From NCBI GenBank assembly GCA_963854735.1, contig OY978097.1, forward strand, positions 2,294,001 through 2,358,000: a stretch of 64,000 nucleotides of DNA, given 5' to 3'. This DNA comes from Marvania coccoides. Its lineage: Eukaryota; Chlorophyta; Trebouxiophyceae; Chlorellales; Chlorellaceae. How positions within the stretch are numbered: the first letter of the stretch is position 1; the number at the start of each line of letters is the position of its first letter. The position numbers were made by a program, and so were the translations under genes. The notes beneath the pieces are model-generated. The model was given only the letters and a program-made list of their open reading frames with translations. It had not been told where the DNA came from and ran no database searches. Of this stretch, positions 35,750 through 59,354 are shown piece after piece.

Positions 35750-37102
35750 TCACAGTCTACTGCCTACACTTATTGATTCACTATCTCTGCTGCTGTTGGT
35801 TCCCCCCAGCCCCCCATTCTTTCTTTTCAAACCGCTACCAACCACCGCGTTCACTGCCTCAACCAGTGCAGCAACGTCCTCAGCGGTGTGCGCAGCTGAC
35901 AGGCTTAGTCGCAAGCGGGAGGTACCCGCTGGCACTGTGGGCGGGCGGATGCCGCCCACGTGGAACCCCCTCTGCAGCAGCCCCCCCGCTGCCGCCATCG
36001 TTGCGTCTTCCGCCCCAATGACCACAGGAACGATGGGGCTCGTAGCAGGCACACCCAGCCCCTCCCCCACAAGGCCGACCAGCCGCCACAAATGCTGTCT
36101 CCGCCAGGGCTCTTCTTGCGCGATGCGCAGCGCCGCCGTCGCCGCAGCCACGATTGGCACTGGCAAAGCAGTTGAAAACACTTGGGCGCGGCCCAGGTTC
36201 ACCAAAAGTTGCTTCCACTGCGCGCTACACGCCACAAACCCGCCAAAACACCCGAACGCTTTGCTTAGGGTGCCAACGTGGAGGTCAACTTGGTCGGCAA
36301 CGCCGGCCGCCGCTGCAGCGCCCTCCCCGCCTGGGCCGCACACCAGCGTCGCGTGCGCCTCGTCCACCGCCAGCAAGAATCCGTACAGCCGCCTCAGCGC
36401 CGCGAGACCTGCCAAGTCTGCGAAATCTCCGTCCATGCTGAAGAGGGAATCGGTGATGACCAGCTGGCGGCGATTCGCAGCGCTGCGGGCGGTCAGCAAG
36501 CTTTCCAGGTGACTCAGGTCGTTGTGGCGGTAGATGTGCAGCTTGGCGCCTGACCGCCGCCCCAGGCGCGCGCCGTCCACGATAGACGCGTGGTTGAGCT
36601 CATCGCTGAAAATGTCAATGTCTCCGGAGCCGACAAGGGCGGAAACCACCGCCAGGTTGGCTGCAAACCCGGTAGGAAAAAGTAGCGCCTCTTCTGTGCC
36701 TTTCAAAGTTGCTAGAGCGGTCTCCAGCTCGCGGTGGTGGTACGTATAGCCGCCGACAAGGGCAGAAGAGCGGGGGCCGTTGCCGTAGCTGCGGGCGGCG
36801 TCTGCTGCCGCGGCACACACCCGGGGGTGCGTGGACAGCCCCAGGTAGTCATTGAGGCTGAAGAGCTTGATGGTGCGGGTGTCGGTGCGGTCTGCCAGAG
36901 TGGGCACCGGCTGGTTGCTCACCCACGCTGCGAGGTCAGCAGCACTGATCTGGGATTCTACGGGAGAAGACCCTGGCCAAGTGGGTCGCAATGTGCGCAG
37001 CAAGCTGCGCTGCCGCAGGTCGCCTAGGGCGTCCTCAAGCCAGGGCTGCCAATTGATTACTGAGTTTTGCAAAAAGTGGGGATTACTTGGTGCGCTGGCC
37101 AT
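35750..37102 (-). CDS. BIO4: 8-amino-7-oxononanoate (KAPA) synthase, biotin pathway
   Basis: PLP enzyme joining pimeloyl-CoA (or its thioester) with L-alanine, the first committed biotin step. Single exon, 450 aa from the Met used here; an ATG-less upstream extension is rejected because it is AT-rich and unlike the family. Motifs: FSLNDYLGLSTHPRV, GPRSSALVGGYTYHHRELE, LFPTGFAANLAV, FSDELNHASIVDGARL, VDEAHATLVCGPGGEGAA and the PLP lysine in GTLSKAFGCFGG (K281). The chain ends in -SRL, a canonical peroxisomal PTS1, in line with peroxisomal KAPA synthase in plants and fungi. The tail before it (GLKRKNGGLGGTNSSRDSES) is a non-catalytic linker. Head-to-head with the fused BIO3-BIO1 gene. bioF is the bacterial equivalent. 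Confidence 0.95.
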   Translation of the reverse strand: MASAPSNPHFLQNSVINWQPWLEDALGDLRQRSLLRTLRPTWPGSSPVESQISAADLAAWVSNQPVPTLADRTDTRTIKLFSLNDYLGLSTHPRVCAAAADAARSYGNGPRSSALVGGYTYHHRELETALATLKGTEEALLFPTGFAANLAVVSALVGSGDIDIFSDELNHASIVDGARLGRRSGAKLHIYRHNDLSHLESLLTARSAANRRQLVITDSLFSMDGDFADLAGLAALRRLYGFLLAVDEAHATLVCGPGGEGAAAAAGVADQVDLHVGTLSKAFGCFGGFVACSAQWKQLLVNLGRAQVFSTALPVPIVAAATAALRIAQEEPWRRQHLWRLVGLVGEGLGVPATSPIVPVVIGAEDATMAAAGGLLQRGFHVGGIRPPTVPAGTSRLRLSLSAAHTAEDVAALVEAVNAVVGSGLKRKNGGLGGTNSSRDSESISVGSRL

Positions 37103-37376
37103 CAAAATAATCGATAGAATACACAAGATTTTTAAAAATATTTTAAAATGGATCACAAATGCTGCTGCATCCCAGAAATCAATTTCGACTAGAATTCTTC
37201 GAAACCTGAAAGCTGCGTTCTTTGAGCTCAATAGAAGCAACTCATAGCCTCTAAAAATATTTAAGCTGCCGAAAATGAATGCCGTGAAGTAGAAGGCCCC
37301 TGTGCGTCCTTAAAGTATTTGAACACTTCATTTTTTTGAATTAAAATTTCCCTCACCATAGCGATAGGGGAACCGC
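37103..37376. promoter_or_regulatory. 274-bp divergent promoter of the two biotin genes
   Basis: Lies between the start codons of KAPA synthase (minus) and BIO3-BIO1 (plus); both 5' ends must be here, so shared control is likely. AT-rich; no known motif recognised and no riboswitch-like structure evident by eye. Confidence 0.5.
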
Positions 37377-37742
37377 ATGGCGGGTACGGCATTGAGCCTC
37401 CTGCGGCGCAGCGCATCACCAGCGCACGGCACCGTGGCTTGCCGCGCGCTCTCCTCTTCGTGTGCCGGCCCCAACACTGACGCCACTTGGCTGCCGCTGT
37501 CACTACCCTCTCTGTGCATCTGGGGTGCCAACACAGGCGTGGGGAAAACCCTGTTCAGCGCTGGTCTTTCTCACGCTGCAGCCGCTTCTGGTGCGCCCGT
37601 GCTTTACGTCAAGCCGGTGCAGACGGGATTTCCTGCAGATGCTGACGCGCGCCTGGTGGCCGCCGTGCTGGGCAAGCGTGACGAATGCGGTCCCCATGCC
37701 GCGGAGCTGCTCCCCGACAGCGAGGCAGTCTCCCGAAGCATT

Positions 37743-37773
<31 letters not shown>

Positions 37774-40188
37774 CTACCGCGCCCACCAGTGCATCAAAAC
37801 TCACGACGCTTTTTGCCTGGCGCAACGCAGTCAGCCCCCACCTGGCTGTAGAAATGGAGGGGCGAGGGGTGGAAGACGGCGTGGTGGTGGCAGCTGTGGC
37901 GCAAGAGCTGCGCTCTTTTGCTGCTGAGCAGCGAAGGAGCGGTGGTTTTGCGGTGGTGGAAACGGCAGGAGGGGTGGCCAGTCCTGGGCCTAGCGGCTCG
38001 CTGCAGTGCGACATGATGCGCCCGCTGCGACTGCCGGGGCTGCTGGTAGGGGACGGCAGGCTGGGGGGCGTGTCTGCCACGTTGGCTGCCTACGATGCTT
38101 TGCACTTCCGGGGACACACAGTGCCTTACGTGGTGCTGATGGACACGGAGCTGCAAAACTGGAAATCAATACATCGTCACGTCGGACCCCTCGGCACCCA
38201 AGTACTGCCTTTTCATGTGTGTCGCCCGCCGCCGTACGGAGCGCGCGACGATTCTTACGACATTGACGTCATCCTCTCGGAGTGGCTGGACGACTCATTT
38301 GGGCAATTTTCAAAGCTGTGGGAGGCGGTGCGGGAGGGGCATGGGGCGCGGCTGGCGGGGCTGCAGGGCGCAGCGGGGGAGGCACAGCAGGTGTTTTGGT
38401 GGCCGTTCACGCAGCATGGGAGCAGCCAATCGCAGCAGCAGCAGCAGCAGAGTGTCAAGGGGGTGAAGGTGGTGGACTCGCGTGCTGGGGAGAGCTATGC
38501 GGTGTTCGAGGAGAGCGACGATGGTGCTGTTGGACTGCGCCTGGAGTACGATGCCGCTGCTAGCTGGTGGACCCAGGCAAGCCCCATTATTTATTTTAAG
38601 CTCAAAATATAATATGGACTAACGACTACTGTACCCCCGATTCGCTAATAATGATAATGCTTTCCCTTTCGGTGCAGGGCATGTCAGCAGAGGCAGCACC
38701 AGGGATGGCTCGAGCAGTGAGCCACGCGGCAGCACGCTACGGCCACATCATCTTCCCTCAGACGGCGCACGAGCCCGCCCTCAACCTCGCCCGCACCGCG
38801 CTGAACCTGGTCGGCGGCGGTTGGGCCTCCCGCGCTTTCTTCTCTGACAACGGCTCCACCGCCATTGAGGTTGCCTTGAAGATGGCATTCAGAAAGTATG
38901 CGGTGGACCATGGGCTAGTGCGTGAAAGCCAGATCGACGAAGAGCACAGCGCGGCTTCTTCCGCTGCCCCCCAGTATCACGTTTTGGGGCTTCAGGATGG
39001 CTACCATGGCGACACGCTGGGTGCCATGGACGCTGTGGCCCCCAGCGTATTCAATGGCCGCCTGCAGACGCCGTGGTTCACGGGGAGAGGCCTGTTTCTG
39101 GACCCTCCCACAGTTGCACTGCAGCGAGGGGAGTGGAAGCTCGCCCTGCCGCAGCGCTTTGCCCACGACAAACGGCCGTCGTTTGACAGCTCCCTAGCCA
39201 ACGTCTTTGCCCCCGAGAGAGGAACCAGCGAGATGTCTGCTGCGTACCGCAAATCCATTGGCGCGAGCATCGATGCCCACCTGGCTGCACACCCCGCTGT
39301 GGCCATCGGCGCTGCCATCATGGAACCGCTGGTGCAGGGCGCTGGGGGGATGCGGCTGGTGGACCCAGAGTACCAGCGCGCTGTGGCCGCAGTTTGCAAG
39401 TCGCGGCGCATTCCTTTGATCCTGGATGAGGTGTTTACTGGGTTTTGGCGCTTGGGGGCGACGTCTGCAGGGGGCATGCTGGGGGTGAAGCCGGACATCG
39501 CGTGTTACGCCAAGCTGCTCACGGGAGGCATCGTCCCCATGTCGCTGACCCTGGCTTCCGAAGCCGTCTTCGAAGCTTTCTCAGGCGAGTTTAAGAAGAT
39601 GTTTTTTGGGGGGGAAAATGGGAAAATTTTGAGCCCCCCCCAAACGCCTTTTTTCTTCCTCCCCCTTCTGGAAAAGCATTCAAAAATTCAAAACTTAATT
39701 ATTTAATATTCGGCGCAGGGGATTCAAAGGCGTACGCGCTGCTGCACGGTCATTCCTACACCGCTCACCCCATCGGCTGCGCTGCCGCCAACCAAGCCCT
39801 CGCTACATTCTCCAGCCCCAGCACCAACTCCAACCTGCGCTGCTGTGGCGCAAAGACCACTTTCTCTGGCTGCGACGGCAGCGGCGCAGCGTGCTCGCGG
39901 CTGCAGGCCCTTTGGGATGAAGCGCGAGTGGCATCAATTTCACACCGCGACCAGGTGGAAAGGGTGCTGGCAATGGGCACGCTGCTGGCGGTGGAGCTGC
40001 GCAGCGCTGTGGCAGGGTACTCCTCCGACGCTGCAGCTGGGGCGGTGGCTGCCCTGCGCCGGCGGGGGGTGTCAGTCCGGCCGCTGGGAAACGTGGTTTA
40101 TTTAATGGTGACGCCAATGACTGCGAAAGCGCAATGCGACAGCCTGCTGGACGCGCTCGAGGGCGCGCTGGACGAGATATCCACTTGA
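37377..40188 (+). CDS. BIO3-BIO1: Bifunctional dethiobiotin synthetase-DAPA aminotransferase (BioD-BioA fusion)
   Basis: Catalyses the two middle biotin steps: KAPA to DAPA (PLP aminotransferase half) and DAPA to dethiobiotin (ATP carboxylation half). Three exons: 37377-38576, 38678-39584, 39719-40188 (858 aa), the same order as plant BIO3-BIO1. The N-terminus (MAGTALSLLRRSASPAHG) is a mitochondrial-type presequence. BioD half: P-loop WGANTGVGKT (50-58), YVKPVQTGFP, VETAGGVASPGPSG. A (CAG)-coded run of ten Gln at about 123-132 interrupts it. BioA half from about 339: VFWWPFTQHG, ASWWTQGMS, GWASRAFFSDNGSTAIEVALKMAFRK, DGYHGDTLGAMDA, LILDEVFTGFWR and the PLP lysine in YAKLLTGG (K679). Both introns begin with GC (gcaagc; gcgagt); only those donors restore WWTQ-GM and FSG-DSKAYALLHGHSY. 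Confidence 0.96.
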
Positions 40189-40367
40189 ATATTAATTCGA
40201 GCAATGTTTTTTAGCTTGGATTTTTCCAGTGAATTGCGTTACAACAATATATATGCTAAATCCAAAGTCAGTGCTGCTCTCAGTATTATTTAAAAATATA
40301 TAATATACCTTTCTTTCATTTATTTGCTCTCGACGCAAAACTGGTGTGTAGGGGGAGTCGAATAATC

Positions 40368-41537
40368 CTAAATGAACGGCAAGATGAGGTACTCGGCGTA
40401 AAACAAGTTCCAGATGAATTGGTAGAACGCGGCAATGGCCTCCTGGCTGTACTTCTTCGAGTCCAGCTTCAGTGTCTGGTACAGCAGCGCCAGCCCCGCG
40501 ACGGCGTGCGCCGGCACCATGACCGCTGCGTTGAACGCCCCAGGCACCAGCACCGCCGCGCCCACCGCCGCTGCATAGTTCACCATCAGCAGCCCCGACC
40601 CCAGGAACGCAATGTTGCGCACCCCCAGCCGCGTGGCAAATGTGTCGATGCCAAACTTCTTGTCTCCCTCCACGTCGGGCAGGTCCTTGGTGACGGCAAT
40701 GACAGTGGCAAAAACGGTGACAAAGGCGGTGATGAAGGTGATGGGAGGGCTCCAGCGGAAGGGCTGGCCCAGAGCAGCACGCACAGCATGGTATACCCCG
40801 AAGTTCAGCAGGAAGCCGCGCACGGTGGCGATGATGGTGAAGGCCGCGACCGCCGAGCGCTTCAGGCGCAGCGGCGGGACGCTGTAGATGGTGCCCAGGA
40901 ACAGCCCGAACGCGTACAGCTTGGATATAAGGGAGCCAAAGTTGAAGGTAGTGATGCCCAGGCCTGCCGCCGCCAGCGCGATGCACAGAAACCACGCGAC
41001 CCCTGGCGACATCTCGCCCGCCGCCACTGGCAAAAACGGCTTGTTCACGGCGTCGATGTCCACGTCGTAGATCTGGTTGATGCCTACGATGTATCCGTTG
41101 CCGCACAGCAGCGCCAGCACCCCCAGCGCCGCCTTGGGCACCAGTCCCCAGTCAATCAGCTCTGGCGTCTCCATCACCGCCTTGGCCGTGACAGCCATGG
41201 ACCCCAGAATGGTGCCGCGGATGGTGTGCGGCCGCAGAAACTTCCAGAACGCCTGCTGGAAGGCCACCGCCTTCTCTGCAAAGCTCGGATCGGGGGTGGG
41301 GAGCGCGCCGCCGAAGTCTGCCGAAGCGGCGGGAACGAGGGGGGAAAGGGGGCGGCGGGCGGGGGGCGCGGGGCGAGAGGGGAGGAAAAAGGGCGCCGAG
41401 GGGCAGGCGCCGCGGCGTGGGCGCGCGCTGGGGCGTCCCAGTGTGGTCATTTTGGCGGGGCGGGGCGGCAGAGCCCTGTGGACCAGGAGGAGTTGGGGGG
41501 GGAGGGGGGGGGTTGAGGCACGGCATCGGGACAGCAT
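40368..41537 (-). CDS. Homogentisate prenyltransferase (UbiA family), probably solanesyltransferase (plastoquinone)
   Basis: Plastid envelope membrane enzyme joining homogentisate to a prenyl diphosphate with decarboxylation. Single exon, 389 aa from the first ATG; a second Met at 41450 gives 360 aa. A Pro/Arg/Ser/Ala-rich transit peptide is followed by the core: [16 protein letters not shown], the first Asp motif [55 protein letters not shown] and the second Asp motif [23 protein letters not shown]. Eight or nine hydrophobic spans are visible, ending [11 protein letters not shown]. The wording of the two motifs ([18 protein letters not shown]) is nearer HST (plastoquinone) than VTE2 phytyltransferase (tocopherol), by eye only. 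This is the clearest sign that the organism is photosynthetic. Confidence 0.9.
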
Positions 41538-42995
41538 GAATACATGGAGCGGGGGTGTTTGGCTCACACTATTGGCCGCTGCATCGCCGAAGCGCGCCCG
41601 GCGAGGCTCATTTCACAGAGATTTTTTTGCGCTTGGTATTTAAATGATCGCCGGGCCAGCGCGATGAAAGGGATGGTGGCTTTGCGTGTTAAATTCTGCG
41701 TAATTGCTTTGAAATTGGTTTGTTTTGTTGCTCGCTATTTTTCCCCCGAGATGATGATGGCGCCTTTTTTCATTTCAATCGGTGAGACCACAAAGAAGAG
41801 TAACATTTTTCAATCCTCGCCTGTTTTTATCTTAGCACTTTGAAAAGCCCAATAATTTTTATTGGCTGTTCTTGCGTTTCTTCGAGTCCTTTGTTTCTGG
41901 TCCGGCCAGCTGCTCCGGCTGTGCCTGGACCTTTCTGTTGTTTTTCATATGCCCGCCAAGCACCGAGGATATTAAGTCTCAATCTTATTTTTCAACAAAA
42001 ATAAAAAATTAAAGGGACACCAGGGGGAGGACGCCCTATAGTAGTTGCACGTTTCTACTCAAAGGTTTCCCATCGTCCAGTCACTTGATGAGTGTACCAC
42101 AATCTGAGACCTGTTGTTTTGTGTTTTGTGTTGACTCCAGCCCACCGCCTACCACTGGAGGGAAGCGTCCCCAGGGGGAGGACGCCTGTAGTAGGTGCCA
42201 GTTTCTGATGGAAATATTTGACATACTAGCAGCGGGCAGCGTGGAGGTTGGAAATCGGCGCAAATGGCATTCAGAGCGAGAGCTGCGGCTGGCGATTGGG
42301 CGGAGCTACGACTGGCGTTCAACAAGCGGCGGTGATGCGGCTGGTGACCGGCGTTGATGACCTGCATGCATTCGCCTTTTATAGGGGCGTTTTATCGCCC
42401 CTTCAGTCACTCCTTCGGGGGTTTTGTTTTGTTTTTTGTTTACAGAAAAAAAAAAAACAGCAACCAACAAAAAAGTATTCTAAGAAAAATAAGATTTGAC
42501 ACTTACGTCGGTCACCTTGCGGATCTCTATAGGGGCAACCTCGGTAGGAGACGTGAAACCTCTGTAAACCCTTAAACCTAGCTGCAGCGTAGTCGTGGAT
42601 GGCCTTGAACAATTCTTGGAGTTTTTGCTGTCTCTGTACAGGTTGCTGTTTGTGCTGGTTACACGTAAATTCTGTAAAACCCGTGAGAGCTCGGGACTCG
42701 AGTGCCATTCAAAAAGTGCCAAAACGAAAAAAAGGAAAGGTTTTAAAAGCAAGAAAATTAAATAGATGCTTGATAGTGGATGATCCACCACTTTCTTTTT
42801 CAAGAAGAAGAACCCCAGCAGCCGCCACAGCGTGTCAGCAGCTTCTGAAGAGGCCACGCACGCCGCCGCCCACCGCTGTTCTTAAAAAAACAGGGCAGTC
42901 TAGCTGACTCCGCCACCTGCTGGCATCTACCATCGGATAAACGCTTTAGGCGAAAGCGTTTCTGCATCTGCACCTATTTTAGCTGTGCAAAAAAA
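41538..42995. other. Long spacer with local duplications
   Basis: No convincing gene. It contains a partial duplication (42021-42056 and 42172-42206, both around cagggggaggacgcc and ending gtttct) and the 41949-41973 copy of a dispersed motif. Short open frames here lack domains and ATG context. Convergent or upstream regions of HST lie at the left end. Confidence 0.5.
42021..42206 (+). repeat. Imperfect direct repeat, two ~35-bp copies
   Basis: Copies at 42021-42056 and 42172-42206 share cagggggaggacgcc, then a variable tagtag(t/g) core and gtttct. They differ at about five positions and are 150 bases apart. Confidence 0.7.
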
Positions 42996-43067
42996 TGGAT
43001 CTGGAAAGATTCGAACTCTCGCCCTTTCCCATGCTAAGGGAAAAATCTACCCCTGATATACAGACCC
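42996..43067 (-). tRNA. tRNA-Ala (anticodon AGC)
   Basis: A 72-base cloverleaf read on the minus strand. The acceptor stem is GGGTCTG paired with CAGATCC, with the G3-U70 wobble that marks alanine tRNAs. The anticodon stem TTCCC/GGGAA carries the seven-base loop TTAGCAT, giving anticodon AGC. The T arm is GAGAG-TTCGAAT-CTTTC. The D arm (TATC...GATT) keeps only three pairs and the A-box is correspondingly weak. No CCA is encoded and there is no intron, as normal for nuclear genes. Could be a slightly degenerate copy. Confidence 0.75.
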
Positions 43068-43209
43068 ACCTTTCGGTTGGCACTGCTAACTCGATCGCAT
43101 GACGACCACGGCTATCAGTCTTGTGATTTTTACAATGAGAAATTTATGTTCCACCATATAGGAGGGTTGGTTAAATAAATAAAATTCTCGGGGGGGGGGG
43201 CAGGGTCGA

Positions 43210-43216
43210 TATAAAA
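43210..43216 (+). promoter_or_regulatory. TATA-like box
   Basis: TATAAAA about 55-60 bases upstream of possible start codons at 43271/43276, ahead of the low-complexity coding region. Position fits a TATA box; evidence is motif only. Confidence 0.35.
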
Positions 43217-43494
43217 GCATCAGGTCGCCTGAAGTTCGGATCCCATGGGGTCATTCAGTCTGTTTTGGCAATGGGAATGGTGGTGAGAGACAAGAGTAAA
43301 AAACCATCTGATCATCGTCAGCCCGGCGCCTGGCCTGCGACCCGATTGCGGGAGGTGTGCATAATGCATTTTAAATACTCAAAATCAAAGACAGGACATC
43401 TTCTCTTCTCCCCCCGGAAATTTTTGGGAAAAAGAAAAAAATTGCACTGGCGCAATTTCATCTCCTCGGGCTTTCCCCCTTTCAATTGCTGCAG

Positions 43495-45029
43495 GAGGCC
43501 CAGCAGCTGGCAGACGCCCCCCTCCAGCGTCACTGCTACTGCCCTGGGTGCGTTCACTGTTGCCGCAAACGCCGCTGGCGCTCTCCCCATGCGGGCAGAG
43601 TTGGCTGCTCTGCCCCCCGCTGTCCTTCCTCCCGCTGGCTTCTCAGCCGGGCCAGGACGAGACGGGAGATCCTGCATTCTAGGCCAAAAAGACGGTGGGC
43701 TCGCCTGCCGAGAAGGCGGCGCCAGCTGCGAGCAGCAGCGATGCCTGCGCGCCGTGGAGCGTTGCCGCACTGGCTGCAGGCAAAGACAGCCTCACAGCAA
43801 CAGGCACGCAGGGGGGCAGCATCGTGCCCAGGCATCAGACGCGCTGGAGGAAGCGGCGCCTACCGCAGCATCGCCCCCCAGCGCTCTCGCTTCCCCCTGT
43901 GGCTTCTCCCGCCCGCCCTTCCAAGTCGGTGAGTCGTAGAATCACTTTTATTCCTGTGCAGGAATCCTGCACAAAATTATCTCAATATATTATCGATAAA
44001 CGGGTTATTAAAGTATCGCTATAATTAATATGTGAATTCACCCTTCTTACCTCTGCATTTCGCCCCCCTTGGTTTTTTCTTCCGCAGGTGGGCGAGCCCC
44101 TCAGCGCTCTGCTGCTGCCTGAGGTGGCTGCGTTGAGCGAGGTTGCGAAAGAGGTGCTGGGCAGCGGCACCTCGAGCGACCCCTTCGCAGAAGAACCCAC
44201 GCTGGAGGCGCTCCCCGAGGACGGAAAGGCCGCCGCCACCGCCGCTGTCCCCGCTGCCCCCTTTGCGTACATCCAGACAGCCACTGGCATCATGGCTCTG
44301 CTCGAGCTGGACATACCAGAGGTGGAAGAGGAGGCGTGCACGTCTTCAGCGCTGCGGTTGCCCTCCAGCAGGCGCCGTCTGTCGGCAGATTTCCAATTTG
44401 ATTTCGCCGAGCCGGCAGCGATGGAGGGGATGGGAGGCACCGCAGTGGACTGCGCAGCGCGAGGAGAAGAAGCTCCACACACCGAGCCGTCCTCGCCCAG
44501 CCTGGTAGACCCCCCAGCAGGCGACAACGGTGCAGGGAGCAGCCTGCTGCCGCACGCGCCCGCTCCTCTCATTCTGGATGGCGGCAACGCCAGCAGCAAC
44601 AGCCTCAGCCTTTCTAGTGATTGAGATATTGAGGGCGATGGCAGCGGCGCAGGCGCAGACGGCGGCTCTGCCACTGCTGAAAGCTCAAACGAGGGAGCTG
44701 CCGGCGAGAACGCTGCCTGGGTGTCGGAGATTGAGGCTGGCAGCCCGCGGGCGCCGCCCAGCCGCACTGCGTCGGCTGGATCGATGGTGGAGGCTGTCGT
44801 CCTGCCGCCCAGCCCGCTGATGGATATCACTGCATTGGCGGTGGCAACGAATGGCAGCAGCGGCAGCGGCGGTGGATTGCCCGCTGTGCTGCGGCTGCAG
44901 CCCGCAAAGGAGACGGCCGACGGCGGCAACGACGGCCGCTCCCGCACCCCCAGCACGCAGTCGCAGGGGGAGGCCCAGCGCAGCGCGCAGCGTTACCTCT
45001 CCCGAAAATATATTGAATGCATTAAATGA
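43495..45029 (+). pseudogene. Low-complexity Ala/Pro/Ser-rich coding region with frame changes and an in-frame TGA
   Basis: Coding-like but not cleanly readable. After a good acceptor (ttgctgcag at 43486-43494) the most protein-like composition moves between frames across 43495-43928. A strong donor (gtgagt at 43929) and acceptor at 44087 lead into 44088-44621, which reads VGEPLSALLLPEVAALSEV and on through an acidic/Ser-rich stretch with RRRLSADFQFDF. That frame is cut by TGA at 44622-44624, then stays open for another 405 bases to 45029 with the same composition (DIEGDGSGAGADGGS). Removing a 42-base gt...ag piece (44619-44660) would skip the TGA in frame, but that is shorter than any intron modelled here. 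Either a decayed gene, an unusual splice form, or a recoded stop. A possible first exon near 43245-43282 follows a TATA-like box. No domain recognised. Confidence 0.4.
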
Positions 45030-45032
45030 TCT

Positions 45033-45482
45033 TCAGCGCAGCGCCTCTTGCACAATTTCCATCCTCAGTTTTTCCTCCAGCCCAGGCACGCAGCGGTGGA
45101 GGCTCAGCAGAGTGCTTCTTATCCGCTTCTTTGTAGTCTCCTCCAGCCTTGAGAACAGGTGCCGCAGGTCCTCGGGGTGTTGCTGCGACACAAACAGCAG
45201 AGCGTCCTTCAATCCAGGGCAGTGGGCTGGAATGTGTTCCCATTTGCGGTAGCCGGCTGCTACAAGGGTCGCAGCCGCGAGCTCAGACAAGTTACCGCCG
45301 GATTTCAGCTCAGCGCCGGCATCGATCATACATTCCTTAGTCGCCGCCACCGCTTCCTGGCTCCCACGCCCTGTGGCTGCCCAGAATAGCGGACTGCGCC
45401 CGCGATTGCCGCCAATTTTATTCATCTGCGCTCCAGCTTGAAGCAGGGCTGCAGTCACGTCGGCATGGCTCCGCCAGGAAGC
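45033..45482 (-). CDS. Ankyrin-repeat protein fragment (3' exon or remnant)
   Basis: An open stretch on the minus strand with two ankyrin-like units: HADVTAALLQAGAQMNK and GRSPLFWAATGRGSQEAVAA...MIDAGAEL. A helical tail follows with LKDALLFVSQQHPEDLRHLFSRLEE. A possible acceptor (attattcag) marks the upstream edge. I find no upstream exon with an ATG that joins in phase in 45483-45900, so it may be the last exon of a poorly visible gene or a remnant. It is convergent with the disturbed coding region ending at 45029. Confidence 0.4.
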   Translation of the reverse strand, partial: ASWRSHADVTAALLQAGAQMNKIGGNRGRSPLFWAATGRGSQEAVAATKECMIDAGAELKSGGNLSELAAATLVAAGYRKWEHIPAHCPGLKDALLFVSQQHPEDLRHLFSRLEETTKKRIRSTLLSLHRCVPGLEEKLRMEIVQEALR

Positions 45483-48972: not shown

Positions 48973-50515
48973 AGGAATTTGTTCGAGTTTTTTTTTTGCT
49001 TTTTCGAGTGACGGCATTTCAGCTGGGTGCTTGCATGCTGTTTGAAGCCTGCCGTCGGGCGCAAGCCCTGCATCACCACCATTTCTACACCATTTTCTGA
49101 CTCTTTGTGTGCTTGGTTAATTTTTTTTGACTTTTCCTGTACCCTCGGTTTTTTTTTGTTCAAATTTTCCTCCCTCTGCTCGTTGAGCGCATAATTCTTC
49201 TTCTTCTTCTTCTTCTTCCCACCCAGTTTGACATCTCGGTGTGCTGTGGAACTTGCCCATGTGCACCTTTTTGTGGTGTTTGTAAGTAAGCCACACTTGA
49301 AACTGAGTGAGACTGGCGCTCAGTCCTGCAAGCACCCCGCTTGAGCTGCCGCGTTGAGCCCACCCACCCCCCCAGCTACAGAATCAGTCGCGCCGCCCGC
49401 TGGAGCGTCAGTTGCGGAGCGGCGCCCCCTCTTAACGCGCTCAACACAAAAATGATAAATAATCACGCCGAGTTTTTTTGTGTGTAGAAATCGTCTACAA
49501 TCTCTCAGGAGAAAAATAATGGCGGCACACGCACATGCCTGGGTCTCTTAAATTATATTTTTGTTTAGAAATAGGACGAGCTTAATTATCCTCGGTGCAT
49601 ATATTGAGCATATTACTACCCTCGGTGCATATTGAGCATATTATTATTTGAAAACATTTGTGTGCCATCGCCGTTCGATTGCCGCGCTGTTCGCGAAGAG
49701 CTGGGCAAGGTGCGGAGGAGCAGCAAGCTGGCCAGCAGCAGCTTGTGTCCCTTTCACAAAGCCGCCCTCCTGGCGCTGCCTCGGCTTCTGAAGAAAATAC
49801 CTAGCGCTCCTCCCAGCATCTGCCTCACGGTGGAAAAGAGTGAGCCTTCTCTTTCGTTCGTTTTTTTTTAGACCCTTTCACGGCTTGTCCTTGGCTTGAG
49901 GTTAACAGCCTCTGGAAAACCCTCAAGAGCACTTTGTTTTATAAGGAAAGTGGCCAGGTAGCGGTGGCCCCCAAAAGGCTGCCCACCCACCCACTCACCC
50001 CTTTCAACTTCCTTATTACCTGCTCTGCAAAAGCAACATGACAATCAGAATACAATACCAGCAGAAGGAGCTACTGAAGGGACCTTAATGTGTGGGGCTG
50101 GACGCATGCCGAAAAGGTATTCTGGCTCTACGCAAACACCGCCCAGACCACATAGATATAACAGAGGACAGACATATTAGATGTCTGAAATCAACAACAA
50201 GTCCTGTCAAATGTCATCTCCTGCCATCAACATTCAATTCGCTTGAGCACGTTTTGCTGCAAGGAAAACCTCTCCTAGTGGCATCTAGACGCCTTTATAA
50301 ATCATTCCGCCACCTCCTTTTCAGCTATTTACTTACCGACAAACATACTTATGCATTTCAATGAAAAACTGAATACAAAACCTGTTCTTCTGGCCCTTCT
50401 CGTCCATTTAAGTTTTTGTTTTTAATTTCGGGTTCAGTACCAGACCAGATCAGCGTCTGCCCCCGTGCCTAGGGCCCCAAGCTATTCTCGAATTCAAAAA
50501 TAAAAAATAAAAAAA
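48973..50515. other. Long spacer with hairpin, TTC repeat and tandem motif
   Basis: The 3' UTR of the preceding gene holds a 7-bp stem (49010-49016 with 49050-49056). A (TTC) run lies at 49196-49218. A 25-base motif around cctcggtgcat is tandemly duplicated at 49589-49648. Open frames here are short with no domain; I see no gene. Confidence 0.5.
49589..49648 (+). repeat. Tandem duplication of a cctcggtgcat...ttgagcatatta unit
   Basis: Two near-identical units in an AT-rich spacer (first with an extra TA). The reverse complement of the core (gcaccgagg) matches the dispersed motif at 29762 and 41960. Confidence 0.7.
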
Positions 50516-51355
50516 ATGAAACCCCGCTGCTTGAGGCCAGGGACGTCCAGGCTGTGCGTCGCCGCTGCCGACTCGCGCCGCCCGCCGCCTGCATCTTCCG
50601 TTCCCTCGTTTTCTGGCCGGGTGACTTCTTCGTCAGCTCCCCCCGAAACTCGCACCTCCTCTTCCGCAGCGCTGGCCACGCCCACCGTGTCCATTGTGGA
50701 GAGACACGAGTTTAGGCGAGGGGTTGGCCTGTGTGTTGTAAACCGAGAGGGTCTTGTGTTCGCTGCAAAGTGAGTTTTTATGATCTGCGTTATGATCATG
50801 ACTTTTTCCAGAGGTTGCGGGCACTGATCACACGGCACCTGCTTGGTTCACGCTCACAGGCGCATGGACGACCGCCACGGTACCTGGCAGATGCCCCAAG
50901 GGTGAGTCGTGCTGCTGTTGTTTTTATATTATATTTCAACTCATTTTTTTCCCCTCCCTCGACCTACACACAGGGGCATCGACCCGCTGGAGAACCCGCT
51001 GGTGGCCGCCCTGCGCGAGCTCAAGGAGGAGACGGGGATGACGTCTGTTAAAATCGTGTCCTCCATCGACCGCTGGCTGGACTACGAGTGGCCCACCCGC
51101 GTTGCCTGCCACCTCACCGGCCGCCTCTTCCGGTACCGCGGGCAGACCCAAAAGTGGATCCTGATGCACTTTAACGGCGCCGACGAGGAGATCGACCTCG
51201 GCTGCCACGGCCACCCCGAGTTTTCAGAGTGGCGGTGGATGAAGCTGGAAGACCTGCCGCACTCGGTGGTGGACTTCAAGCGCGGCGTGTACCAGGCAGT
51301 AGCCGGCCATTTTGGACCTCATGTTGAAAGGTTGGGAGGGCGGGAGAAAAACTAG
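50516..51355 (+). CDS. Nudix hydrolase, RppH/Ap4A-hydrolase type, probably organellar
   Basis: Hydrolyses dinucleoside polyphosphates or RNA 5' pyrophosphate. Three exons: 50516-50769, 50860-50901 (42 bases), 50974-51355 (225 aa). The first 55 residues are Arg/Ser/Pro/Ala-rich with few acids, a plastid-type transit peptide. The core shows RRGVGLCVVNREGLVFAAKRMDD, then HGTWQMPQGGID and the Nudix box GGIDPLENPLVAALRELKEETGM (GX5EX7REUXEEXGU complete, split by an intron). WLDYEWPT, GQTQKWILMHFNG and EFSEWRWM follow, the pattern of plant NUDX26/27 and bacterial RppH. Plant relatives are plastid or mitochondrial. No oddities besides the tiny middle exon. Confidence 0.92.
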
Positions 51356-52910
51356 GTTTCTTTTTCTTCTGGACGTAAAAACTTTGCTTTGGTATTTTGT
51401 TCCCTTTTTGTACACTTTTCGAGCCTCTCAGAGCGCCTTTGTTCTCTATCATACCATGCACATCGAACGAACATTTGTTGCATAGCTGTCAATTTATTTT
51501 TCTTTGCTTCTTTTGTTAGCGTGGCGACGAACCCTTTGTACACTCTTGACAGCCAGCTTTGAAATCCCTATCCAAATAAGTACATCATTCATCTTTTTCT
51601 TTCATTCATTCCTTGCAGTTTTTGTCGTTTTAATTCATCGCCCATCTTGTTTCTTTTGATGTAAAAAACCCTGTGCCACTATCGATCTCCTTGGGGGAAG
51701 TACAGAAAACCATCAGATGCTGCCATTAATGGGGGACATTGACGCGCGCTTTGTCCCTTTGTTTGGAGGGCCAAACGCAACTTTTAAAGAACTCAAATGC
51801 GGCGGAAACTCAGTACGGCATGGACGATGCTAACAGCCAGCATTGACAGGCACCTACTGCTGACGGACCCCCTCCTTCATCAAGCGCAATCACCCTCGGA
51901 GAATAATGGGCAGGGAAAAAATCAGATGCCATTCATGCGCAGACTCGTCCCTGCACCTGCTTAGTACTTTTTGCACAACAATACACACACAAAATTAAAA
52001 GCTTAGACTCCACATAGAGACGGCAACAAAGGCCACACAGCAGTGAGGCAAGCTTGATCCTAACAATTAAGCCAGGAGAAAATCCTAACAATTAAGCCTG
52101 TCCGCCACACATGGAGTGGCTGTAATTGCAATGGCTCAAACAGAAAAAGGATCGGGGGGGGAAGTCGCTCCTGCAAATGCACGCCATTGACCTTCTTGCT
52201 GCTGCACATTACGATTCATCGAGAAACCCCTATGCTTAATCAGAGTCAGAGCTGCCGCACTTGTTCCTCGGAAGGAAAAAAAAAAAAACGATGCTGTGTC
52301 CGTACGTCCCCAGTAACTGAGGGTGGACCTGCCTTCATGTGGCGGGGTGGCACACCGCCTTGAGAGCCTCTCCGGCCGGAGCTAAAGATTATGCCCCGCA
52401 AGAGAGCGTAACCTGTAACCCAGCACCCAGTAACCCCACAAACCGCCACCCAGTAAACCTGAAAACTGGCACACGGAAACCCGCAAACCTGGAAACCGCC
52501 AAAATTTGCCAACGTGCACTACTCACGGTCTCGACCACTGTAGGGGCCATTGACGGTTCAATAACCTGTAAACCTGCTGCCGCCGCCGCTCAATCTCCCA
52601 GGGGCGCTCCCCCGAAAAGAGTGCAGATCGCGCACCAGAGTTTCCGGTCTGGCCTTAAAACATACTTTGTTATGCTTGGAGCTTGAACTGTCTCTCCTTT
52701 CATCCCTCTTTCTCTTTCCGTCAAAGCCAATTTCGTCAATGATTATCAAGAAAGCAATTATTGAAACAAAAACAAATGCAGCGTAGTTTTTAAAAATGTA
52801 CAAAGAAATACACAGAAACCTCTAAGAATAGCAGGCTGTTGTCGTACTTTTAGAGAAAGAAAAAAGAAGTTTTAAATTCACAAATATCACCACCGCTGTT
52901 TTATTCGTCC
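51356..52910. other. Long spacer, convergent 3' regions
   Basis: No gene recognised. Between 52390 and 52500 runs a degenerate series of AACC(T/C)-containing units (aacctg, aaccccac, aaaccgcc, aaacctgg), the complement of GGTTT-like steps; possibly a decayed minisatellite. Poly-T and poly-A stretches are common. Confidence 0.5.
52900..52905 (-). terminator. AATAAA polyadenylation signal of the Zn/Cd ATPase
   Basis: AATAAA on the minus strand only six bases past the ATPase stop codon, so the 3' UTR must be very short if used. Confidence 0.5.
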
Positions 52911-55900
52911 TCAGTGGTGATGGCGGTGGCCGCCGCAGCAGTGGTGCCCGTTCTCGGCCTTGCTGCTGCCGTGATCATGCCCATGGTGGTGCTCGTCCTC
53001 GTGATGAGAGTGATCGTGGCTGTGGCTTTGACCGCTGTGGTGATGCCCCTCCTCTTTGCCGCCGCCGCAGCCAGCACTCTTCTTTTCCACTCCACAGCAC
53101 TCCAGCCCCGCCCCCGCATCAGAAGCAGCGCAGCACGGCGTCACAGCCGTCGCGCGCCCGTCGCAGCACGACTTCGAGCTCTTGCACGAGATAGTACTAT
53201 TGCACGACTTCGTGCAGTTGCTGGTGCTCCCCACATCACAGCACGACTTGCCGCCACAGCTGGTGCTCTTGCAGGACGCGTCACTGCAGCCCTTGGTGGC
53301 AGCGGCAGCCTCGCCCACGCAGGCAGCTGCCCCGGCGGGAAGCTTAAAGTCGTAGCGCAGCAGCGTCAGCCCATTGAGCGTCACCAGCAGCGCCGTCCCC
53401 ACGTCCACCAGCACCGCCCCAAACAGCGTGAACTTGCCCAGCGCCGCCAGCACCAGCACCGCAATCTTGGTGACCACCGACAGCGCAATGTTGAACGCAA
53501 TCTTGCGAGAGGCAGCCCGCGCCAGCCGCACCAGCGCCGGCACCACCCTCAGATCGTTGGTGAACAGCGCCACCGAGCCAGCCTCCAACGCAGCAGCGGC
53601 GCCGCCCACACCCATGGCGATGCCGACGTCAGCCGCAGCCAGCGCAGGGGCGTCGTTGACGCCATCCCCCACGTGCGCCACCCGCACACGGCGCAGCAGG
53701 GTGCCCTTCCTCCACCTCAGCACCCCCGTGAGGCGGCTCCACAGCGACCGCCGGCGCCCGCCAGCGTCGGGGCCCAGATCGTAGGCCGCCACCAGCTCCA
53801 GCTTGTCCTGGGGGAGCAGGCTGGCGTGGGTGTGGTCGGGGGAGATGCCCGCCGCCTCTGCCACAGCGGCAGCCACCGCACGGTTGTCACCCGTGAGCAT
53901 GGCAGGCGTAATGCCCAGTGCCCGCAAGGCAGCCACTGCCTCGGGGGCTTCAGGCCGCATGACGTCGCGCGCGGCAACGTACCCCGCGTAGCGCTCGTCC
54001 ACCGCCACGTAGCACGTCGTCAGCCCCCGCCCCTCGGTGCTCTCAGTGTCTCCCTCCAGCGCGGCCGAAGACTCTTTGCCCTTGATCGACCCCGTGCTGC
54101 CGTCCCACAGCTGGCGAAGAAACTCGGCGGTGCCGGCGCGCACAGCCTGCCCCTCCACCACCCCTTCGATCCCAAAGCCAGGCACAACGGCGGTGCTGTG
54201 GACGGCGGCGTCGCAGGCCGCCCCCCGCGCGGCCGCCCGCCCCACGATCGCGGCAGCCAGCGGATGGCTGGACCCGCGCTCCAGGGAACCCAGCAGGCGC
54301 AGCAGCTGCCGCTCGTCCATCCCGCTCTTCTCGCTGTCTTCAGACACCGCCACCGTCTCCACCATGAACGCGCCCCGGGTCAGCGTGCCGGTTTTGTCCA
54401 GCGTCACCGCCTCCACGTTGCACAGGCTCTCCAGCACCACCCCGCCCTTCACCAGCACTCCCACCTGCGCGGCTCTGGCCAGCGCCGACACGATGGTCAC
54501 CGGCGTTGACAGCACCAAGGCGCAGGGGCACGCCGTGACCAGCACCTGCAGCGACAGGTACACCCAGTGGGTCCTGTCCGCGTTGGGGTTCGACCAGGGC
54601 ACAAAAGCCAGCAGGATGCAGGCCAGCAGCACCAGCGGGGTATAGATGCGGGCAAACTTGGCGACGGCGGCCTCGGCGGGGCTCTGCCGGGACGTGGCTT
54701 CCTCCACCAGCCTCGCCATGCCCGCCACGAACGTCTCCTCGGAGGTGGTGGTGGTGCGGACCTTCACCAGACCGGACCCGGCGTTGAGTGTCCCCGCCCG
54801 CACCTCATCGCCTGCGTTCTTCACCGCCGCCAGGCTCTCACCGGTGAGGATGGACTCATCGAACGCGGAACTGCCCGACACCACCACGCCGTCCAGCGGC
54901 GCTTTGTCGCCCGCACGAATGATGATCGTCACCCCCACAGGCACCGAAGCAGCGGGGACCTCCTCCCCAGTGGCTTCCAGCACGGCGTTGTCGGGCTTCA
55001 GCGCCAGCACCGCGGCGATGGCGTCCCGCGCCTGCCCCGTGCACCTTTCTTCCAGGAAATCCGACACTTTGAAGAGCACCACCACGATGCCCGCTTCAAT
55101 GTAGTCTCCAATGGCGATGGCGCCGATGCTGGCCAGCGTGATGAGCAGGTGGATGTCCATCACCCAGTGCCGCAGCGCGCCCAGCGCTTTGAGCGCAATG
55201 CCAGGCAGGCAGAGCGCCACTGCATAGGGGGATGGGATTCTTTTCTTCAGAGTTCTTTTCATTTTCAAGAAAATGAAATAAAACAGAAAACGAAAACGAC
55301 GCACCAGAGCCCAGGGCCACGTACTCAAAGTAGTCCAGCCAGTACACGCCGGTGGCACCCGCCAGGTAGTGCACCAACGAGATGATGAGCAGCACGCCGG
55401 CAAGCAGCACGTACGCAGGCGGCACCCAGGACCGCTTGCCGCTCCCGCGGGAGCGCGGCGCCGTCAGCGACGCCCCCAGCCGCGCCTCGTTGAGCGCCGC
55501 CACCATGGCAGCGGGGGAGGCCAGAGCGGGGACGTGGCGCACCATGATTGTCTTTGTGACCACCGACACCTCAACATCGATCACCCCAGCCAGGGAGTGC
55601 AGCGCTGCGTCTGCCACGGGGATCTCCATGGGGCAGCACACCTCCGAGCAGTAGATCTTGGTGACGGTGGGCTCGGCGTCGCTCACAGAGTCCAGGGAGG
55701 CGACGGCCAGGGAGGCGCAGCAGGGGAGAGTGCACCCAGGCCCCGTGCACCGGTGCTGCTTTGAGGGGGAGGCAGTTTTCCGCCTGGGCAAGAGACTTTG
55801 TGTAAGGGACGAATAAAGTAAGAATTGGGTTATCGACAGAAGAAAAAGAAGGCATTCAGAAATAAAATTTATGCAAAAATCAATACTTCTTTCTCGAATA

Positions 55901-56355
55901 GAAAGGAAGCAACGATTGACTGTTTTGCTCTACCTGTGCAGGCTGGAGATCCAGCGGCCGTGGCTGACGATCATCGGCTCGCACTTCTCCGCTTCTGGGG
56001 CGTGGTGGCTGTGAGAGCAGCACTCGGAGGTCAGGAGGTGATGCAGCATTCCGTCATCGCCTACATAGTCGTAGTGGTCGTCGTGCTGCACCACATCATG
56101 TCCGCAATCTGGGCCATGGATGTGGCCATCGTCCAGCATCAGAAGTCCGCCGGCGCCGTGGGAGCACTGCCGTGGAAAGCTGCCGGAAGAGTTCTGCGAC
56201 ATCTCCACCGACATAATCCTCTCTGCAGCGGCGTTGCCAGCAGTGTGAATGAGGTGGTCATGCCCATGGTGATCCGTAGGATGCGAAGGAGAAGAGTGGT
56301 TGCAGCAAGCGCCATGTTGGTGTCCGTGCGAGCTCCCATGATCGTGTGGAGCCAT
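52911..56355 (-). CDS. Zn/Cd-exporting P1B-type ATPase (HMA2/HMA4-like) with His/Cys-rich tails
   Basis: Pumps Zn2+/Cd2+ across a membrane at the cost of ATP. Three exons: 55934-56355, 55305-55783, 52911-55219 (1069 aa). The N-terminus is a His-rich leader (HDHGSSHGHQHGACCNH and more), then a heavy-metal-associated fold with TKIYCSEVCCPMEIP, the CC-P-E form seen in Zn/Cd pumps. Membrane spans start near YVLLAGVLLIISLVHYL. Signatures are complete: LTGES (actuator), the CPC metal site in TACPCALVLSTPV, DKTGTLT (D575 phosphorylated), SHPLAAAI and GDGVNDAPAL. After the last span comes a tail of more than 100 residues packed with Cys (CGGKSCCDVG, SSKSCCDG) and ending in a His run. Which membrane is not decided. 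Confidence 0.95.
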
Positions 56356-56876
56356 TCAAAGCTAAATCAGGGCCGTGGTGGCGCAAAAAGCGTGCCCTCT
56401 TCGCTTCAACGAGATTTTCAATTGAATATACGAGGGATAAAAATAGCAGCAGATGAGCTACGAGCTACGGAGGCTAGCTTATAAGAGGGAGAAGTTTTAT
56501 GATTCCATCTGCAAATTTTATACACGCCAGAAATCGCCTGCTTCACAAATAAGTGTTTTCGTTGAGTGAAACAGTTGCAGCAAAATAAAGTACCACCCAA
56601 TGTGGGCTGGCCAACCTACGTCTTCATTACCGGGAGGAAGGCTACTCCCCCTCACGATACACAATGCTCAACATTTATGCCGCATGGGCGCTTGTGCAGT
56701 GCAATTACAAGAAGAAGAAGGCGTTGTTGAAAAAAAAATAGAACAGCCGACTTGGGATATTATAGTAGAATTATTAAGAGTAAACAACAGTGTAAAAAAA
56801 ATAGGAAAAATAGTACAACAACTAAATGTAAAAAACAATCATTTGAATAGAAGTAGTAGAAAAGTTTGGAGGACGC
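56356..56876. other. Spacer between ATPase and hydroxylase genes
   Basis: AT-rich: upstream region of the ATPase and 3' region of the next minus-strand gene. Short open frames only. Confidence 0.45.
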
Positions 56877-57752
56877 TCATGCTGCTCGCTTGCCGTCGCT
56901 CTGAAAGTGCTCAGCCACCATGGCCCGGTACTTGGGGTGCTCTGTGCCGCACAGCCTGTCCCAGTGAGTCATGTAGAGGCTGAAATGCACCTTTGGGTGG
57001 CGGTGGTGCATGTCATGATGGCGCACAGTGTTGAGCGCATCAGCGGGAACTTTAGGCCCCTTAACCGCCAGCCCCACGAGCGCTTCCAGCGTGGGAATGA
57101 AGGGCGCCACCTCGTAGCCCGCGTGCCCCCCGCAGTGTATCAACGTGGTGTACATGTGGTAGGCCCGATGCAGGCCGACGTGAATGGGCAGTAGAAAGCA
57201 CACCAGCACCTCGTTGGCGAACACGATGGCGGCCTCCACCACGTGGAAGGAGTAGCCGCAAAAGGCGGTGGGCACCGTGGAGCGGTGGTGCATCGCGTGC
57301 ACTCGCTTGTAGAGCGGGGCCCAGTGGAGGAGGCGGTGCGTCCAGTAAAACCATGCATCGTGGAGGTAGTCAAGCGCCAAGACAGTGGCCAGTGCGTACG
57401 CGATGGCGCCAGGGGTGGAGATGGGGCCTGCGTAGAGGAGGCCTACGCCGGCAGCGTGCAGGCGCTCGACCACCGTCCACACCGCAGCTTTCACAGCCAG
57501 AGGGCCTGCAAGAGTGCATCTTTCGTTAAATCTAGGGGTTATGGGGTGATGAAGTGAAGGAAAGCGGGTCTTACCGAGGCTGGTGAGGGCTTCTTGGAGA
57601 GCCTGGCCCTGTTTTGGTGATCCCTTTTGAACCGAAGTCACCGAGAAGAGCACGGGGATGAGGAAGTGGATGAGGATGGCGGCGCCATAGTATGATGCAC
57701 ACGACTGGACAAATGCCGCCAGGAACCCCCCTCCATAAAGCGGAGGCCACAT
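56877..57752 (-). CDS. Fatty acid hydroxylase/sterol desaturase-superfamily membrane enzyme
   Basis: Di-iron, oxygen-dependent membrane enzyme on a lipid or sterol. Two exons, 57575-57752 and 56877-57505 (268 aa). Hydrophobic spans flank three His boxes: WFYWTHRLLH (HxxxH), RVHAMHHRST (HxxHH) and TVRHHDMHHRHP (HHxxHH), the complete PF04116 set. LDYLHDAWFYWTHRLLH carries the conserved Asp before box 1. The substrate cannot be told from sequence. Intron length is a multiple of three and the retained form stays open, but splicing gives the better protein. Divergent from biotin synthase (222-base gap). Confidence 0.9.
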   Translation of the reverse strand: MWPPLYGGGFLAAFVQSCASYYGAAILIHFLIPVLFSVTSVQKGSPKQGQALQEALTSLGKTRFPSLHHPITPRFNERCTLAGPLAVKAAVWTVVERLHAAGVGLLYAGPISTPGAIAYALATVLALDYLHDAWFYWTHRLLHWAPLYKRVHAMHHRSTVPTAFCGYSFHVVEAAIVFANEVLVCFLLPIHVGLHRAYHMYTTLIHCGGHAGYEVAPFIPTLEALVGLAVKGPKVPADALNTVRHHDMHHRHPKVHFSLYMTHWDRLCGTEHPKYRAMVAEHFQSDGKRAA

Positions 57753-57974
57753 CCGAATGCGGCTAATAATCTCCCCTCACTTCGTGATCAGGATTGTAGC
57801 CTGGTGCGCTCCATCAATCCCGCACAAACCAGCAATTTATAGCATACATTTAATGTGATAAATGATCGCCTGATCCGAGAATTGTGTGTTGTTGTTTCCG
57901 AAGTCCGAAACCCAAAGCCCCCGCTTTTCGCCTGCTGCCAGGGCTTGATCGAATTTTATTTTAAAATTACAGGC
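57753..57974. promoter_or_regulatory. 222-bp divergent promoter between hydroxylase and biotin synthase
   Basis: Start codons face away from each other. A ttacag|gc acceptor-like site directly before the biotin synthase ATG hints at a 5' UTR intron. No TATA box seen. Confidence 0.4.
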
Positions 57975-59354
57975 ATGTTGAGGTCTCGGCAGGTGGTCGG
58001 CGGGCTGCTTCGGCGGCTATCCGCTGCTCCAGGGCAACAATTGAGCGAGTCTTTGGCCCGTCTGCTGTCGTCCTCCTCCGCCGCCCAGCACGTCCAGGCA
58101 GCCCCCATTGAGGAGCCTGCGGCCGATGACAAGCCGCGCTGGAAGCAGGAGCTGGGCATCATGCGCACCGACTGGACGTAAGTCTTGATTTTTCAATCTC
58201 CAATCTCCTTCAAACCAGGGCCCACCCACTTTTCTCTCATCACCCACCCACAATTGCTCCTGCGCAGACGAGATGAGGTCTCGGAGGTGTTCAACGCCCC
58301 CCTGCTGGACCTGGTGTACCACGCTGCCGCCGTGCACCGCGCCCACAACGACCCCTCCATGGTGCAGCGCTGCACGCTGCTGTCCATCAAGACCGGCGGC
58401 TGCCCCGAAAACTGCAACTACTGCAGCCAGTCCAGCCATTGGTCCAAGGACACGGGCACCAAGGCCGAAAAACTGATGAATTTGGAGGACGTGTACGAGG
58501 CAGCCCTGCGCGCCAAAGCCTCGGGCAGCACGCGGTTCTGCATGGGCGCGGCGTGGCGGGGGCCCTCCCAGGTGGGGGAGCGCCAGTTTGGGCGCGTCCT
58601 TGACATGGTGACCCGCATTCGAGGGCTGGGCATGGAGGTGTGCACCACGCTGGGCATGCTGACCCCAAAGCAGGCAGCGCAGCTGCGGGACGCGGGGCTC
58701 ACCGCCTACAACCACAACCTAGACACCTCCAAGGAGTACTACGAGAAGGTGACCACCACGCGAACGTACGAAGACCGGCTGACCACCATCGAAAACGTGC
58801 GCCAGGCGGGCATCTCGGTGTGCGCTGGGGGCATCATTGGGCTGGGGGAGGGGCACATGGACCGCGTGGGGCTGCTGCACCAGCTGGCCACCCTGCCAGC
58901 TCACCCAGAGTCAGTGCCCATTAATGCTCTCGTGGCGGTGAAGGGTACGCCCTTTGAGAAGCACGAGGCCCCCACGGGGCTGGATGTGGTGCGATGTGTG
59001 GCCACCGCGCGTGTGGTGATGCCCAAGACCGTGGTGCGGCTGTCCGCCGGCCGCATGAACTTTTCTTTCGCAGACCAGGCGCTGTGCTTCCTGGCCGGTG
59101 CCAACTCAATTTTTGACGGCGACAAGCTGCTGACGACGCCCAACAACGACCGCAACGAGGACCTGGCCATGTTTGACCTGCTGGGGCTGAAGAGCAGGCC
59201 GGCGTTCATGGATTACCCGGCAGGCGGGCCCAGCAGCGCAGACTTTAAGAGCAGAGACTTTGTGGCTGAGCTGGACATCCACCCAGAAGCCCCGGAGACC
59301 TGCCCCAAGCGCGCCGCAGCGGCAGCATTGCAGCAGCAGCAGGCCTCTGCATAA
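57975..59354 (+). CDS. BIO2: Biotin synthase (radical SAM)
   Basis: Inserts sulfur into dethiobiotin, the last biotin step, using a [4Fe-4S] cluster for SAM cleavage and a [2Fe-2S] cluster as sulfur source. Two exons, 57975-58177 and 58268-59354 (429 aa). The N-terminus (MLRSRQVVGGLLRRLSAAPG) is a mitochondrial presequence, as in plant BIO2. The core includes the radical SAM triad in GGCPENCNYCSQSSH (CxxxCxxC), RFCMGAAWRGP, VCTTLGMLT, YNHNLDTSKEYY, CAGGIIGLGE and LSAGRMNFSFADQALCFLAGANSIFDGDKLLTTPNN. The Cys residues for the second cluster and the conserved Arg of LSAGR are present. A Gln-rich tail (ALQQQQASA) is unusual. Bacterial equivalent bioB. Mitochondrial location is inferred. Confidence 0.97.

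Follow-up and report, generated by a model that had tools for sequence, protein, structure and literature searches.

A probably conserved but loose biotin gene neighbourhood in the green alga Marvania coccoides and related trebouxiophytes

Aspergillus nidulans is said, in the title of a 2011 paper by Magliano, to possess a biotin cluster that includes a BioD-BioA fusion gene, bioDA. Here we analysed a stretch of 64,000 nucleotides from the trebouxiophyte green alga Marvania coccoides (hereafter the window; bases 2,294,001-2,358,000 of the 3.40-Mb contig C1, part of a 22.46-Mb genome in 15 contigs), in which three non-homologous genes, BIO4, BIO3-BIO1 and BIO2, cover the last four steps of biotin synthesis, all within 23.6 kb. 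As far as the available sources describe it, the A. nidulans cluster is like the Marvania locus in being a nuclear eukaryotic biotin cluster with a BioD-BioA fusion. In contrast to that fungal cluster, the algal genes fall with those of green algae and plants, and because of this grouping the algal arrangement probably arose independently of the fungal one. In Arabidopsis, unlike in Marvania, BIO4 and BIO2 are presumably located away from the BIO3-BIO1 locus. This bifunctional Arabidopsis locus (Muralla 2008, as cited in the accessible part of PMC3713238) carries the same fusion of dethiobiotin synthetase and 7,8-diaminopelargonic acid (DAPA) aminotransferase. For Saccharomyces, the accessible part of PMC7267198 (citing Phalip 1999; Hall and Dietrich 2007) describes BIO clusters that involve BIO5, which serves the uptake of vitamers, BIO1 paired with BIO6, and genes gained by horizontal transfer; there, too, biotin genes are gathered in a eukaryote, whereas the Marvania genes are plant-type and look native.

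Loose gene neighbourhoods that are conserved among green algae, including sets for nitrate, urea and arsenic, were described by Foflonker and Blaby-Haas 2020 (PMC7826186), and the locus studied here resembles those in the accessible text in being loose, conserved and green-algal. The genomes named there include Coccomyxa C-169, Picochlorum SENEW3 and Chlorella NC64A. Because the first criterion of that study, as given in the same portion, required at least four of nine chlorophytes, a set limited to its three trebouxiophytes would be missed by it. In its main text, to the extent that it is accessible, biotin is confined to the introduction, with a citation of Hall and Dietrich, and to the reference list. 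No report of an algal biotin gene cluster was found in the literature searched, in which subscription papers and supplements were mostly beyond reach. Set beside these systems, the Marvania locus looks like a loose conserved biotin neighbourhood of trebouxiophytes built from native plant-type genes, biotin clusters as such being known from fungi.

BIO4, probably encoding 7-keto-8-aminopelargonic acid (KAPA) synthase (BioF), is an intronless open reading frame (ORF) of 450 aa on the minus strand (35750..37102; Pfam PF00155). It stands head-to-head with BIO3-BIO1 on the plus strand, the two start codons being separated by an intergenic region of 274 bp (37103..37376) that presumably serves as a shared promoter. 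BIO3-BIO1 consists of three exons, of which exon 1 (37377..38576) encodes the dethiobiotin synthetase part and the start of the aminotransferase part, exon 2 (38678..39584) the DAPA aminotransferase part in a splice frame that matches the homologues P0121 and P0122, and exon 3 (39719..40188) the remainder up to a stop codon ending at 40188. Together they give a single spliced frame of 858 aa, BioD followed by BioA. Both introns (38577-38677 and 39585-39718) begin with GC and end with AG, a type of splice site that is uncommon. BIO2 starts on the same strand 17,786 bp after the BIO3-BIO1 stop codon and comprises exon 1 (57975..58177), a GT-AG intron (58178-58267) and exon 2 (58268..59354), which carries the radical-SAM domain of biotin synthase; its spliced product has 429 aa. 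The whole three-gene span is 23,605 bp. An earlier note on this DNA had placed all four core biotin genes at one locus of about 24 kb, with 274 bp between the BIO4 and BIO3-BIO1 starts, BIO2 about 18 kb further and HST, Nudix and ATPase genes in between. The genes are indeed real and lie where it had put them, the 274 bp are exact, and the intervening genes are present as a UbiA prenyltransferase above the homogentisate phytyltransferase cut-off, a NUDIX domain and a P-type ATPase. Its description as a loose neighbourhood and not an operon is supported as well, since BIO4 is on the strand opposite to BIO3-BIO1 and other genes lie between BIO3-BIO1 and BIO2.

Among 16 NCBIfam matches of BIO4, bioF was the best (377.7 bits), without reaching the bacterial-model cut-off of 426.45, and the top PDB matches were KAPA synthases. 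Residue K281, which we take to be the lysine that binds pyridoxal phosphate, was invariant in all ten aligned sequences. For the BIO1 part, bioA was the top NCBIfam model (261 bits, below the bacterial cut-off of 405), and both PF13500 and PF00202 were present in BIO3-BIO1 homologues aligned over 95% of the spliced protein. BIO2 matched bioB with 359.2 bits, above the cut-off of 225, and shows the CxxxCxxC motif as CPENCNYC.

To relate this arrangement to that of other species, we compared the best 120 protein matches listed for each gene; species absent from these lists carry no information. A match is usually annotated with the size of the longest contig on which the protein occurs and, in some cases, with a locus tag, and identical sizes were read as a shared contig. 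In Micractinium tetrahymenae, BIO2 (ABPG75_007525), BIO4 (ABPG75_007530) and BIO3-BIO1 (ABPG75_007531) are all on a contig of 5,888,142 bp. BIO4 and BIO3-BIO1 have consecutive tags in Nannochloris (g03440 and g03439; 2,770,097-bp contig), are both on a contig of 1,632,337 bp in Chlorella variabilis, and occur together on small metagenome contigs of 5,856 and 6,724 bp. BIO4 and BIO2 were found on same-sized contigs in Coccomyxa C-169 (4,035,500 bp), Picochlorum SENEW3 (1,133,345 bp) and Elliptochloris (317,441 bp), as well as on further contigs of 130,041 and 520,730 bp. BIO3-BIO1 and BIO2 are both on a contig of 4,668,230 bp in Myrmecia and on one of 45,624 bp, whose BIO2 is 90% identical to that of Marvania over 60% query coverage.

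Exact agreements in contig size above 3 kb numbered five for BIO4 and BIO3-BIO1, six for BIO4 and BIO2, and three for BIO3-BIO1 and BIO2, corresponding to 12 distinct contigs (Micractinium being counted three times). In a shift control, in which one list of sizes was moved by 1-100 bases either way and two size classes were summed, the respective means above 3 kb were 0.065, 0.095 and 0.060. Two agreements below 3 kb (1,914 and 1,623 bp), each between rows of differing origin, were taken as chance; the control mean for this size class was 1.035. One BIO2 contig size, 2,809 bp (P0327), was left out of the comparison; on reading, it occurs in neither of the other two lists. At least two biotin genes were on one contig in seven of eight comparable trebouxiophytes versus none of ten green-lineage species from outside that group (Chlamydomonas eustigma, Haematococcus, Volvox africanus, Pleodorina, Edaphochlamys, Scenedesmus, Monoraphidium, Bryopsis, a pedinophyte and Riccia; Fisher p = 0.00025). 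That the records of one species come from one assembly is likely, not certain, for Haematococcus, Pleodorina, Scenedesmus, Monoraphidium and the pedinophyte; without these five, the count was 7/8 versus 0/5 (p = 0.0047). Chlorella vulgaris, Auxenochlorella, Trebouxia, Sanguina, Tetradesmus, Tetraselmis and Diacronema/Pavlova lutheri are each named for two or more of the genes and were left out of the 18-species count on the ground that their records came from differing assemblies, species or strains, or had no contig.

Within the trebouxiophytes, BIO2 is 17.8 kb away from BIO3-BIO1 in Marvania, at most 45.6 kb away in one relative and separated from BIO4 by four intervening tags in Micractinium. 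If tags follow position, BIO2 flanks the pair next to BIO4 in Micractinium and next to BIO3-BIO1 in Marvania; local order would then have changed and linkage stayed. A changed order with kept linkage fits selection on nearness, and a single local inversion would do likewise. We weighed the possibility that the functional unit is the BIO4/BIO3-BIO1 pair only, with the nearness of BIO2 reflecting neutral synteny from slow rearrangement. In favour of this explanation are the close spacing of the pair in Marvania, its consecutive tags in Micractinium and Nannochloris and its recurrence on the two small metagenome contigs, as well as the distance of BIO2 and the unrelated genes that intervene. The switch of side with linkage kept argues against it, subject to the same reservation about an inversion, as does the presence of BIO2 on a same-sized contig with one gene or the other of the pair in five named species and on three further contigs. 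On balance, we consider a function restricted to the pair possible, yet rather unlikely.

No second copy of BIO4, BIO3-BIO1 or BIO2 was found in the 22.46-Mb genome searched. Three other genomic matches of BIO4 were 33-38% identical, and the best other BIO4-like frame (L002) was rejected as a second BIO4 since serine palmitoyltransferase models scored highest on it, below their cut-offs. BIO2 had one genomic match, and the three other matches of BIO3-BIO1 (30-32% identical) were confined to the aminotransferase part. Random placement would bring the genes within the observed span with p of about 3e-6, a value that applies to one preset single-copy trio, ignores contigs and is uncorrected for the many pathways that could have drawn notice. 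Indeed, with many pathways per genome some nearness is expected, and unrelated genes intervene, so that the proximity of the three genes might be an accident of no functional meaning; given the small value for a preset trio and the recurrence of linkage in relatives, we regard this as improbable. Of the outcomes that the earlier note had named as refuting, the two that sequence can reveal did not occur: further copies were not detected, and in the closest relatives seen, shared contigs and locus tags speak against a random scatter of the genes. Its view of a 'partly assembled' cluster is doubtful: the linkage is common to several Chlorellales and, for that reason, looks old.

Several observations weigh against a conserved neighbourhood. 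Linkage in the relatives was read from protein matches on contigs of identical size and from locus tags, with distances known for some relatives only. The positive cases of Coccomyxa, Picochlorum, Myrmecia, Elliptochloris and C. variabilis are the weak ones, with co-location only on a contig of 0.3-4.7 Mb, and because Picochlorum has 12 chromosomes (13.75 Mb; accessible part of PMC11092101), a shared contig has a chance of about 1/12 in that alga. In Symbiochloris, the only comparable trebouxiophyte without linkage, BIO4 and BIO2 are on separate contigs, and in Coccomyxa C-169 a second BIO4-like gene (P0092) lies on another contig. In Marvania itself, BIO2 is separated from the BIO4/BIO3-BIO1 pair by a transfer RNA (tRNA) gene and four or more protein genes unrelated to the pathway. 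The single genomic match of the BPL/LplA/LipB family, a candidate biotin-protein ligase, is on another contig, C9; not every biotin gene need therefore sit at the locus. The 11-mer TATTTTAAAAT occurs at 37139-37149 and 57957-57967 and is confined, within the window, to the two divergent intergenic regions upstream of BIO3-BIO1 and BIO2, but an equally long shared word appeared in 25 of 500 shuffles, and the match is not significant. Genome-wide, TATTTTAAAAT gave 98 matched rows versus 74 for the reversed control and so lacks specificity.

Taking both sides together, we hold it to be somewhat better than an even bet that trebouxiophytes possess a conserved but loose biotin gene neighbourhood, composed of a tight divergent BIO4/BIO3-BIO1 core with BIO2 kept nearby. 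The neighbourhood is firmly supported within the Chlorellales and weakly beyond them.

In such a neighbourhood, the BIO4/BIO3-BIO1 pair probably shares a single bidirectional promoter region, which would lead to joint expression of the KAPA-making enzyme and the enzyme of the next two steps. BIO2 may be kept near by selection and not by slow rearrangement. The KAPA step may take place in peroxisomes, as suggested by the C-terminus of BIO4 (SRL), which resembles a type 1 peroxisomal targeting signal (PTS1). An end of the form [SAC][KRH][LM] was present in 78 of the 120 BIO4 homologues listed, bacterial ones included, and in all of the best ten. The next two steps would be mitochondrial, judging from the N-terminus of BIO3-BIO1, the first 30 residues of which contain three R/K and no D/E and are compatible with a mitochondrial presequence; those of BIO2 contain five R/K and one D/E. 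According to the accessible part of PMC3713238, fungi have conserved a BioF with a PTS1, and compartments of the plant and fungal biotin enzymes are described there. The ends of the Marvania biotin proteins are compatible with the compartments given there, with targeting predicted from the sequence.

The biotin genes look vertically inherited, as far as sequence comparison indicates. In the BIO4 tree, Marvania BIO4 grouped with Nannochloris (support 98/94), and in the BIO2 tree, Marvania BIO2 grouped with the BIO2 of the 45.6-kb contig (99/55), inside a chlorellalean group (97/98) with Micractinium, Chlorella, Parachlorella, Auxenochlorella and Picochlorum. These positions place the alga most likely among the chlorellalean trebouxiophytes, near Nannochloris, where it would be photosynthetic. 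The two trees, for BIO4 and BIO2, were midpoint-rooted for drawing. Since biotin clusters exist in fungi (titles of Magliano 2011b; Hall and Dietrich 2007), the set might instead have been acquired jointly from a fungal or bacterial donor in which such a cluster was present. However, for each of the three genes the best named matches come from green algae, no named fungal protein was present among the 120 matches listed per gene (many of which are nameless), and the BIO4 and BIO2 trees, with fungal sequences outside them, broadly track green-algal groups. Moreover, bacterial BioD-BioA fusions (L017-L020; from Silvanigrellales metagenome-assembled genomes (MAGs), Fluviispira and a proteobacterial MAG) share only 33-36% identity with P0121, the trebouxiophyte homologue that served as query. 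Horizontal transfer of the set is thus disfavoured, and a joint gain from such a donor seems to us hardly credible. The viral_contigs and genome_contigs collections gave no algal contigs and no viral relative of BIO3-BIO1. Five viral_contigs loci (L021-L025) carry BioF-like genes that are 33-39% identical to BIO4, and a 673-aa protein (P0115) joins dethiobiotin-synthetase and KAPA-synthase domains.

The interval between BIO3-BIO1 and BIO2 contains the UbiA prenyltransferase gene (40368-41537; homogentisate phytyltransferase model 265.8, cut-off 226), a tRNA-Ala gene, frames without Pfam match, the NUDIX domain (within 50906-51355), a heavy-metal P-type ATPase gene (52911-55262) and an FA_hydroxylase gene (PF04116). 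tRNA-Ala alone was found in the search for RNA elements. The FA_hydroxylase gene (56877..57752, minus strand), to which the earlier note does not refer, is head-to-head with BIO2, the two being separated by 222 bp from start to start (57753..57974). Its sole genomic match was itself, and as PDB and NCBIfam searches gave no match, no specific substrate can be named for it. We know of no identified enzymes that make the pimeloyl-CoA precursor in plants and algae. A true biotin regulon, independent of the fungal clusters and including an FA_hydroxylase that would supply an oxidised fatty-acid precursor of pimeloyl-CoA, appears very improbable. Shortly 3' of BIO2, a frame at 60700-61500 resembles, by eye, a mitochondrial carrier. 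Beyond the right edge of the window, ORFs of at least 120 aa in the adjoining 10 kb were inspected by eye; phosphatase-like and sulfotransferase-like frames were noticed there, and no biotin-like one.

If selection holds the three genes of the conserved but loose neighbourhood together, biotin would join nitrate and urea among the clustered pathways of green algae. Green algae and fungi would then each have brought together the genes of one vitamin pathway, apparently independently of each other, which would offer a natural comparison for asking what leads eukaryotes to cluster a pathway with enzymes that presumably occupy different organelles. Neighbours that are conserved with BIO4, BIO3-BIO1 and BIO2 across the Chlorellales would also be a place to seek precursor-making and regulatory genes.

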